Origin: a bacterium
GTDB lineage: Bacteria; Krumholzibacteriota; Krumholzibacteriia; LZORAL124-64-63
Direction: 5' to 3'
Assembly: GCA_014730255.1 (NCBI GenBank)
Contig: WJIQ01000172.1
Location: 1 to 33,567 of the forward strand
DNA: 33,567 nucleotides
A program made the position numbers and the translations under genes. This document shows positions 9,772 through 11,763 of this stretch, piece after piece. Positions within the stretch are counted from its first letter, which is position 1. Each line of letters starts with the position of its first letter. The notes below the pieces were generated by a model that did no database searches, was not told the DNA's origin, and was given only the letters and a program-made list of their open reading frames with translations.

Positions 9772-9856
9772 AATATCGTCGCAACGATCGCGTTCGCAAA
9801 GTCGGGAAGGTCGCGCAGATCCGACCCTTCACGCGTGGCCGGGCCTGCGTTACGAT
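9772..9856. promoter_or_regulatory. Divergent promoter region between efflux operon and S9 hydrolase
   Basis: Plus strand: TTCACG (9828-9833) and TACGAT (9851-9856), each 4/6 to consensus, with a 17-base spacer. They would start a transcript about 30 bases before the hydrolase ATG. Minus strand: TTGCGA (complement of 9794-9799) and GATATT (complement of 9772-9777) with a 16-base spacer. They would serve the adaptor-permease operon. Both are partial matches. Confidence 0.35.
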
Positions 9857-9894
9857 CCGGTCCACCCCGTTCGACCCCGACCAGGAGGCCCACG

Positions 9895-10980
9895 ATGCGC
9901 CACGCCCTGATGCTCCTCGTCCCGATCGCCATCCTCGCCTCGAACCCGGCCGTCGCCGACGAGACCGGCACCGAGGATCTCGCCGAGCAGATCGCCGGGT
10001 TGCAGCGCACGATCGAGGGCCGGCGCCATACGCTCGACATCCTGCACAAGAAGATCGACGATGTCCTGTGGTTCGAGCGCGTGGGCGACGTGGCCGAGAT
10101 CGACAAGGTCCGCCTCTGGGGCCCGCCCCGCTGGAAGGAGGAGAGCCCGACCGCCATCGGCGCGGGCCAGCCGCTGAAGTTCTGGGCCTACATCTTCGTC
10201 CCCCGCGACCTCGACCGTTCGGGCGAGGTCCCGCTCCTGGTCTTTCCCCACGGTGGCGTGCACGGCGATTTCACGACCTACTACACGCACATCGTGCGCG
10301 AGATGCTCGCCCAGGGGTACGTGATCGTCGCGCCGGAGTACCGCGGCTCGACCGGCTACGGCCGCCGGGTCTACGAGAACATCGACTACGGCGGTCTCGA
10401 GACCGAGGATGCCCACGCCTGCCGCCGGTACATGCTGGAGAACTACCCGTACATCGACGAGGACCGCGTCGGCATGGTCGGCTGGTCTCACGGCGGCCTG
10501 ATCTCGCTGATGAACTGCTTCCGCCATCCCGACGACTACGCCTGCCTGTACGCGGGCGTGCCGGTGAGCGACCTCATCGCCCGGCTCGGCTATCTCGGCG
10601 AGGACTACGCGGCGTATTACAGCGCCGACTACCACATCGGCCAGACGGTCGAGGAGAACATCGCCGAGTACCGGCGTCGCTCGCCGGCCTGGAACGCCGA
10701 GAAGCTCGAGACCCCGGCCCTGATCTTCACCAACCGGGGCGACGAGGACGTCAACGTGCTCGAGGTCGAGCACCTGATCAAGTCGCTGAAGGCCGCCGAC
10801 AAGGAGTTCGAGTACGAGATCTTCGACACGGCGGGCGGCCACAGCTTCGACCGGCTGGACACCCGGGAGGCGCAGACGATCCGGCTGCGGATCTACCGCT
10901 TCCTCGCCCGTCATCTGGATCCGCCCCGGCCGTTCGATGACGTCGACGCGCTCCACGCGGCGGGCTATCGCGGACATTAA
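9895..10980 (+). CDS. Secreted alpha/beta hydrolase, prolyl oligopeptidase (S9)-like peptidase or esterase
   Basis: This 361-residue protein has a signal peptide (1-21, SNPAVADE). A short coiled region (~25-55) is followed by an alpha/beta-hydrolase domain. Visible motifs are the oxyanion strand LLVFPHGGVHG (~114-124), GYVIVAPEYRGSTGYG (~141-155, typical of S9 and acylaminoacyl-peptidases), the nucleophile elbow GWSHGG with Ser198, the acid loop NRGDEDVNV (Asp283 or Asp285) and the His loop GGHSF (His316). No beta-propeller precedes the catalytic domain, so it is a stand-alone catalytic unit. AGGAGG upstream supports the ATG at 9895; the frame is open 60 bases further up without a ribosome binding site. 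The stop codon abuts the nested inverted repeat. Peptidase versus esterase activity cannot be decided. Confidence 0.87.
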   Translation: MRHALMLLVPIAILASNPAVADETGTEDLAEQIAGLQRTIEGRRHTLDILHKKIDDVLWFERVGDVAEIDKVRLWGPPRWKEESPTAIGAGQPLKFWAYIFVPRDLDRSGEVPLLVFPHGGVHGDFTTYYTHIVREMLAQGYVIVAPEYRGSTGYGRRVYENIDYGGLETEDAHACRRYMLENYPYIDEDRVGMVGWSHGGLISLMNCFRHPDDYACLYAGVPVSDLIARLGYLGEDYAAYYSADYHIGQTVEENIAEYRRRSPAWNAEKLETPALIFTNRGDEDVNVLEVEHLIKSLKAADKEFEYEIFDTAGGHSFDRLDTREAQTIRLRIYRFLARHLDPPRPFDDVDALHAAGYRGH

Positions 10981-11158
10981 CCCGGATCATTCACGAAGGG
11001 CCGTCGCGAGGCCGAGGAAAACGGCTGCCAGAACACGACCTCGCAAGGGCTGGCGAGGGAGACGTACCCGATGCGGTACGTTGACCGAGCCAGACCGAGA
11101 AGGCGTGTTCTGGCAGCCGTTTGGCCGGCCGCAGCAGGCCCTTCGTGAATGATCCGGG
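10981..11158. repeat. 178-bp nested inverted-repeat element between convergent genes
   Basis: Outer arms 10981-11002 and 11137-11158 are perfectly complementary over 22 bases. Inner arms 11019-11037 and 11104-11122 are perfectly complementary over 19 bases. Between the two arm pairs (11003-11018 and 11123-11136) complementarity is only partial. The 66-base centre holds two further hairpins: 11040-11057 (5-bp stem) and 11063-11080 (CGTACC/GGTACG with a 6-base loop). The element fills the whole gap between the stop of the hydrolase (TAA, 10978-10980) and that of the next gene (complement of 11159-11161), and TA dinucleotides flank it. No transposase is encoded. Candidate natures are a MITE, a REP/BIME-like repeat, a structured RNA, or a bidirectional terminator. 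I do not recognise it as a named family. Confidence 0.9.
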
Positions 11159-11644
11159 CTAGAGATCGAAACCGATGGCGGCCCCGCCCATGGGCACGAA
11201 CCCTTCCCCGTTGAGCAGCGGCGTGAACGCCAGGCGCATGAACAGCCCGTTGCCCCCGTGGTAGCGGTAGCCGAGGATCGCCGTGCCGGCGACGTGGCTG
11301 TCGGGCTCGTCGTAGAGGAGGTCGTCCGGATCGGGATCGTCGCCGACGCCCACGAACGCCATGCCCGCGCCGATCTCCAGGAAGCTCTCCCGATCGCCGA
11401 GCAGGTAGCTGACCGTCGCGGGCGCGACGAGGTACTCCTCGAAGACGGCGAAGGTGCTGCCGGCGCCGATGCGCAGGGCGACGTTCGGCTCGACGCGGTG
11501 GTCGAAGTTGACCGAGGCGATGCCACCGGCCCCCATGGCCTCGACGAACAGGGTCGAGCTCTTGACCCAGTACTGCTGGGACACGGCCGGCCGGGCGAGG
11601 ACCACGACGAGCAGGGCGGCGACGATCACGGGCAACGAACGCAT
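11159..11644 (-). CDS. Small exported protein, probably an outer-membrane beta-barrel
   Basis: This 161-residue protein has a signal peptide (1-22, VVVLARPAVSQQ). The rest is glycine-rich alternating hydrophobic/polar sequence (LFVEAMGAGGIASVNFDHRV, ALRIGAGSTFAVFEEYLVAPATVSYLLG, FLEIGAGMAFVGVGD) ending in AAIGFDL. This resembles small OmpW/outer-membrane beta-barrel families of about 8 strands, but no named family is recognised. GGAGG lies 7 bases before the ATG at 11644; the frame is open further up but the signal peptide begins here. It converges on the S9 hydrolase across the inverted-repeat element and diverges from the exonuclease gene. Confidence 0.75.
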   Translation of the reverse strand: MRSLPVIVAALLVVVLARPAVSQQYWVKSSTLFVEAMGAGGIASVNFDHRVEPNVALRIGAGSTFAVFEEYLVAPATVSYLLGDRESFLEIGAGMAFVGVGDDPDPDDLLYDEPDSHVAGTAILGYRYHGGNGLFMRLAFTPLLNGEGFVPMGGAAIGFDL

Positions 11645-11763
11645 CTCGAATCCTCCGGAAAGCGAATCCTGCGGGGTCGACGCCGCGCAATGTAGCACAT
11701 GCCTGGCGCGGACGGGACCGAATTCGCCTGGCGCGGCGTCCCCGGCGCCCCCATACTCGGAGC

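Follow-up and report, generated by a model that had tools for sequence, protein, structure and literature searches.

The window (the whole stretch of 33,567 nucleotides analysed here) carries a 178-bp element between two convergent genes, built of nested inverted repeats in which a 22-bp outer and a 19-bp inner pair of perfect arms enclose a 66-base centre. This nesting is real, and the arms lie exactly where the preliminary description had placed them. The features of the locus are as follows.

9835–10980, + strand: prolyl oligopeptidase (S9) family gene (Pfam PF00326, E=3.5e-32)
10977–10980, + strand: left flank TTAA, of the YTAR class; TAA at 10978–10980 is the stop of the + strand gene
10981–11158, + strand (the strand bearing the GAGGGAG...GTTGACC core): 178-bp gene-less copy of the element, detected by blastn of its own genome and matched by the covariance model at 202 bits
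10981–11002, no strand: left terminal inverted repeat CCCGGATCATTCACGAAGGGCC, 22 bp, the terminal 17–18 bp of which match the IS1380 element of genome G003
11003–11020, + strand: outer conserved box, 5' side, with GCGAG invariant in alignment A2
11019–11037, no strand: left inner arm, 19 bp, perfect; sequence swapped between genomes, pairing retained
Between the inner arms: centre of 66 bases
11055–11088, + strand: conserved core GAGGGAGACGTACCCGATGCGGTACGTTGACCGA, a GTACC/GGTAC hairpin plus two tandem GA/GA mismatches (alignment A2)
11104–11122, no strand: right inner arm, 19 bp, perfect; sequence swapped between genomes, pairing retained
11121–11135, + strand: outer conserved box, 3' side, consensus CCGCAGYAGC
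11137–11158, no strand: right terminal inverted repeat, 22 bp, in perfect pairing with the left arm
11159–11162, - strand: right flank CTAG; CTA at 11159–11161 in reverse complement gives TAG, the stop codon of the - strand gene
11159–11698, - strand: convergent gene, 179 aa, without a Pfam match

The folding energy calculated for positions 10981–11158 was -134.3 kcal/mol for the + strand and -127.6 for the - strand, compared to means of about -68 and -67 for shuffled sequences (z = -14.4 and -15.1, respectively), with none of 200 shuffles equally low, which upholds the earlier claim that the element can fold from either strand. The element was also confirmed to fill the convergent gap, as it is the sole DNA between the stop codons of the two genes. 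Two points had been overlooked: the element is repeated throughout the genome, and the TTAA and CTAG flanks hold both of the convergent stops. Because these flanks supply the stops, neither convergent protein is damaged. The C-terminus of the S9 protein is retained (LHAAGYR-GH in the window, compared to LHAAGYR or LHAAGYRS in orthologues), and that of the 179-aa protein is intact, given that the orthologue in genome G001 aligns up to residue 177 of 179.

The window copy has unequal flanks, left TTAA and right CTAG. Either one or both of them must have altered after the element inserted, or the copy has recombined. On the coding side, the two tetranucleotides differ at a wobble base and at a synonymous stop base. 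Later mutation under a constraint to keep the stops would be a simple account of the mismatch, and recombination between copies would be another. An empty site for the window copy was sought through orthologues of the S9 gene and its neighbour, and none was found, the neighbours of these orthologues being different.

A repeat family in the genome of the window and its relatives

The genome to which the window belongs (G000) is, judged by kinship, a Candidatus Krumholzibacteriia MAG of 4.18 Mb in 407 contigs, estimated to be 94% complete. Six near-complete copies were detected in it by blastn, five of which, including the window copy, are intact at 98–100% (the four other full copies are 98–99% identical to the window copy), while the sixth, L020, is truncated and diverged. 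A further 17 half copies lie at contig ends (nine five-prime and eight three-prime), and sorting these halves by the end that they carry gives a total of 15–23 insertions. The preliminary description had proposed that a single copy, with arms diverging freely, would speak against a repeat family; the element is instead multi-copy with its pairing retained, and the repeat family stands.

At least 17 contig ends of G000 fall inside the element (e.g., C10, C11, C12, C37, C73, C166 and C401). The repeat accounts for many contig breaks in these MAGs, and the contig ends inside it could help to scaffold that of G000.

Homologues of 175–180 bp with 72–79% identity were detected by blastn in G002, G009, G026, G032 and G049, and a covariance model (R1, built from 28 copies, with the phylum search covering the same 80 genomes) added G007, G010, G019 and G078; weak matches were seen in G006 and G076. 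About 13–29 matches each were found in G002, G026 and G032, all Candidatus Krumholzibacteriia MAGs, the first of which is of the same genus as the window's genome, and G049 represents another family. A modular relative is abundant in a genome labelled Nitrospirota, as deposited (G080, 2.2 Mb), which holds dozens of matches (loci L174-L204). On contig L091 of this MAG, a 239-bp element with the ends CCCGCAGTATTCATGA and CTAG on both sides contains the same core, and the Nitrospirota copies that were inspected are modular, 90–295 bp long, and have YTAR flanks with the same ends and core. Searches of plasmid, phage and viral collections for the element gave no match, nor did a search of genome contigs for the exact 22-bp end pattern.

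Two further observations concern these relatives. When the copies in G080 are read in element orientation, the flank pair CTAG..CTAA occurs seven times and CTAA..CTAG not at all, a skew that plain target duplication does not predict. The contig that holds L090 comes from a record labelled Kiritimatiellae, shares its site with Krumholzibacteriia STD1_131 and is the sole contig of that MAG with a G002-like element; it is probably a misbinned Krumholzibacteriia contig.

Ends, target site and probable mobiliser

An intact IS1380-family element in G003, a genome of the same genus, has ends that match the ends of the family (CCCGGATYATTCAYGAA). This element (L110:1261-2938, 1678 bp) has the ends CCCGGACTATTCATGAAT and CCCGGATTATTCATGAAT, is flanked by CTAG on both sides, and is inserted precisely at the TAG that ends a gene for a 390-aa multihaem-cytochrome-like protein (ORF end L110:1260). 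Its transposase scored 367 bits against the NCBIfam IS1380 model (cut-off 180) and 7e-126 against Pfam PF13701; IS701, which had been considered as the mobiliser, was dropped once this transposase, whose element has the matching ends, had been classed as IS1380. Of the 17–18 terminal bases, 17 are common to the G003 IS1380 end and the majority end of the family, with the window copy differing at two, and in G010 and G019 the common end extends to CCCGGATTATTCATGAATC. These terminal 17–19 bp are the only part in common with IS1380; a search for the element core in IS1380 interiors found nothing, indicating that the interior is not IS1380-derived.

YTAR tetranucleotides (CTAG, TTAA or TTAG) account for 80 of 110 flanks. 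Among the 44 copies for which both flanks are available, 30 have YTAR on both sides, and the two tetranucleotides are identical in 25 and non-identical in 19. An empty site was recovered for copy L002, the flanks of which, joined at a single CTAG, match G003 over 857 of 900 bases across the junction. At this site G003 carries GACTAGGGATCAG and no element, reading GACTAGGGATCAGCCCTCGGC compared to GACTAG-(element)-CTAGGCCTCGGC at L002.

Given that the family is multi-copy, that its ends match those of an intact IS1380 element, that its flanks are mostly YTAR, and that a relative holds an empty site with a single CTAG, we conclude that the element is a MITE, and its length of less than 500 bp, lack of a transposase gene, terminal inverted repeats and target-site duplications are in keeping with this. 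Judged from its ends, it is most likely mobilised by an IS1380-type transposase. The earlier suggestion of a MITE mobilised in trans is thus well supported by copy number, ends, flank duplications and empty site. In G009, G032 and G076 an IS1380 transposase gene co-occurs with the elements. No such gene was found in G000, G002, G026, G010 or G019 among the 80 genomes searched, nor in the Nitrospirota genome G080. Multi-copy IS are often missing from MAGs, and since MAG gaps at repeats limit the search, the missing gene in G000 is a gap and not a contradiction.

We propose that an IS1380-family DDE transposase, encoded elsewhere, would recognise the ends of the element and paste it into a 4-bp YTAR target, duplicating the target in the process. 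This target would often coincide with the stop of a single gene, or with the stops of a convergent pair where these overlap, and insertion there would regenerate a stop on each side. Such insertions may persist because both proteins are left unharmed, which would constitute a simple route to a harmless transposon, the target tetranucleotide itself being the stop codon of both genes.

To place this preference for stops against a background, 275 YTAR sites lying outside elements within 405 kb of element loci were taken as controls. Elements adjoined the stop of a coding-scored ORF in 23 of 41 cases, compared to 97 of the 275 control sites (35%; p=0.015), and double stops in 4 of 41 compared to 7 of 275 (p=0.04), with 18 of the 41 copies adjoining no scored stop. 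YTAR is largely stop-codon sequence in this GC-rich genome, and the stop preference follows for the most part from the choice of target; the modest excess beyond this may reflect the loss of harmful insertions. Elements showed no preferred orientation with respect to genes reading into them (11 of 19 sense).

Several known systems resemble the family in part. IS1380 (NCBIfam NF033539, Pfam PF13701) has the same terminal 17–18 bp CCCGGATTATTCATGAA, CTAG-type 4-bp flanks and insertion at a stop codon (L110, G003), but the MITE is without a transposase gene, has an unrelated interior, and measures 178 bp compared to about 1.7 kb. Correia/NEMIS and ERIC are palindromic, MITE-like repeats of 100–180 bp that fold over their whole length; they have a TA target and ends different from those of the MITE, and we presume that the MITE ends and core are dissimilar to their consensus sequences. 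The BOX, RUP and SPRITE repeats of Streptococcus pneumoniae are likewise shorter than 200 bp, highly folded, bounded by terminal repeats like those of a resident IS, flanked by target-site duplications and scattered between genes, but they have another mobiliser (IS630-type for RUP), are AT-rich and are unrelated in sequence (PMC3049150), whereas the target of the MITE is a stop-codon tetranucleotide. A REP/BIME-like repeat, as the preliminary description had also suggested, is not supported. Such repeats are arranged in pairs and go with a RAYT transposase, and PMC3733652 defines them as 20–40-bp palindromes with a GTAG/CGTC tag; the unit here is 178 bp with terminal inverted repeats and target-site duplications. 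No paper on IS1380 MITEs with CTAG was found, and as far as the literature searched can tell, the family has apparently not been described before. The element is ordinary in kind, but its folded interior is unusual and conserved, and its choice of target renders it almost harmless. It represents an apparently new MITE family for a little-studied uncultured phylum, with an abundant relative in Nitrospirota.

Pairing, the conserved core and competing explanations

In alignment A1, 33 of 69 predicted pairs show two-sided changes, compared to 19 +/- 1.8 in shuffles and 7–14 for slid structures, and 97.8% of cells are paired, compared to 31–43% in slid controls. Two-sided changes alone are no proof of selection, and these repeats serve as a warning that covariation by itself does not prove a functional RNA. 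In L164 (G002) the right arm complements the left without a mismatch all the way through core and loop, so that the whole centre is a perfect palindrome. Homogenisation in L090 and L025 covers the second internal loop, and in L165 (G032) the centre has been inverted with respect to the outer boxes. Template switching between inverted repeats has two described outcomes, arm homogenisation and spacer inversion (PMC8604942), and can maintain hairpins (PMC8794818). Given that copies with homogenised arms and with an inverted centre exist, template switching contributes to the pairing; during replication, one arm would be copied onto the other (as in L164) or the centre inverted (as in L165), keeping the palindrome partly paired. 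The family thereby resembles template-switched quasipalindromes in its arm homogenisation, spacer inversion and multibase compensatory changes (PMC8604942, PMC8794818), but these are the product of a mutational process and not a family, and here the process acts on a mobile element. The preliminary description had attributed the perfect arms to recent origin or to selection on pairing. The arms have indeed remained paired over long divergence, but this is at least partly the result of template-switch homogenisation.

The core GAGGGAGGCGTACCC...GCGGTACGTTGACCGAG and the boxes GCGAG and CCGCAGYAGC are non-complementary at key places and are retained in most copies. Homogenisation by template switching would erase them, and their persistence is not explained by switching. 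Alignment A2, of 11 divergent copies, shows little or no variation in the GCGAG box, in the CGTACC and GGTACG arms or at the inner GA/GA. L152 keeps both GA/GA motifs but has CC/GG in place of the two GG/CC pairs that separate them. Mean column identity in A1 is 96% for the core versus 75% for the inner arms, a value inflated by the many A1 copies from G002, G026 and G032 that were gathered by the exact core pattern; core conservation inside these three genomes was left out, and between-genome conservation rests on copies found by BLAST and the model. Differences between genome consensuses amount to 0–5% in the second loop, ends and core versus about 40% in the arms (p=2e-33), while within G000 mutations are spread evenly over the regions of the element (26 mutations, p=0.83). 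Because mutations within G000 are uniform and yet the core is conserved between lineages, these results suggest selection on mobility, that is, on what multiplies, and not on each resident copy. The core and outer boxes might have been retained since copies without them multiply less well. The copies thus provide a natural series that separates template-switch homogenisation from selection on structure, as paired arms vary freely and the non-complementary motifs do not.

Taken as a whole, it is highly probable that the element is a folded MITE, mobilised in trans by IS1380 and targeted to YTAR and stop codons, the pairing of which is partly template-switched and the core of which is kept. A strong hairpin on both strands between convergent genes would also be expected of an element selected, where convergent genes end, as a bidirectional terminator or as a stabiliser of mRNA 3' ends, and in pneumococcus SPRITE repeats show enrichment close to convergent 3' ends (PMC3049150). 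The element is far oversized for such a role, however, and is multi-copy with target-site duplications; inspection of the sequence reveals no U-tract, as the outer arm ends in GGG followed by CTAG or TTAA on either strand. Moreover, many copies adjoin no scored stop (18 of 41) and only 4 of 41 adjoin both, YTAR is itself stop-enriched so that the position needs no terminator role, the evenly spread mutations in G000 do not spare the stems, and orthologous S9 genes end without the element. We consider selection as a terminator or stabiliser very unlikely.

It is less improbable, if still unlikely, that a structured RNA or folded single-stranded DNA came first, functioning through the conserved core, with the IS1380-like ends as its means of spread. 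The non-Watson-Crick core is kept across genera, in another family (G049) and in a Nitrospirota MAG while the arms change completely, the flip in L152 spares the GA motifs, and it is only on one strand that the GA/GA mismatches are favourable. The same strand has 26 G.U compared to 12 A.C mismatches, but this excess is weak (p=0.03, or p=0.26 with the terminal inverted repeats excluded), and RNA energies had been used in choosing the structure. No Rfam family matched at or above its gathering score and permissive thresholds gave nothing credible, orientation relative to genes reading in is without preference, the core is not extra protected among G000 copies, and collection of many A1 members by exact core inflates its conservation. 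The earlier idea of a structured RNA formed by readthrough has no positive support, in that no Rfam family or orientation preference accompanies the element, but a conserved folded core does exist. Equally unlikely is the proposal that spread depends on a conserved folded strand, as RNA or extruded single-stranded DNA, with the G.A motifs and the GTACC/GGTAC hairpin acting in transposition or in the attraction of a partner; if true, a DDE-type miniature transposon would bear an internal structural signal common to different phyla.

The homogenised copies L164, L090 and L025, the inverted L165, and the occurrence of changes in blocks could also imply that homogenisation by template switching alone produced the compensatory changes, and that the interior is neutral filler under no internal selection. 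This seems unlikely to us, given that the core and boxes have survived in separate lineages in which the arms beside them were replaced. Core-less copies of 73–91 bp with good YTAR flanks are compatible with mobile short forms as well as with deletion after insertion.

Among these short forms, four of 73–89 bp are without the centre but have both ends: two of 73–74 bp in G000 (L039:770-843 and L042:1790-1862), and one each in G009 (L166:1043-1124) and G002 (L167:1054-1142). Several have matching YTAR flanks, and they may be mobile short forms or else products of deletion within the palindrome. Four loci considered as autonomous elements (L040, L041, L043 and L044) were rejected, as they carry one end only and are without a transposase, and are thus remnants. 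At L044:2004-2089, a lone element end has become part of the C-terminus of an ORF running in the opposite direction, which ends EAEATALRE; this is a remnant turned coding.
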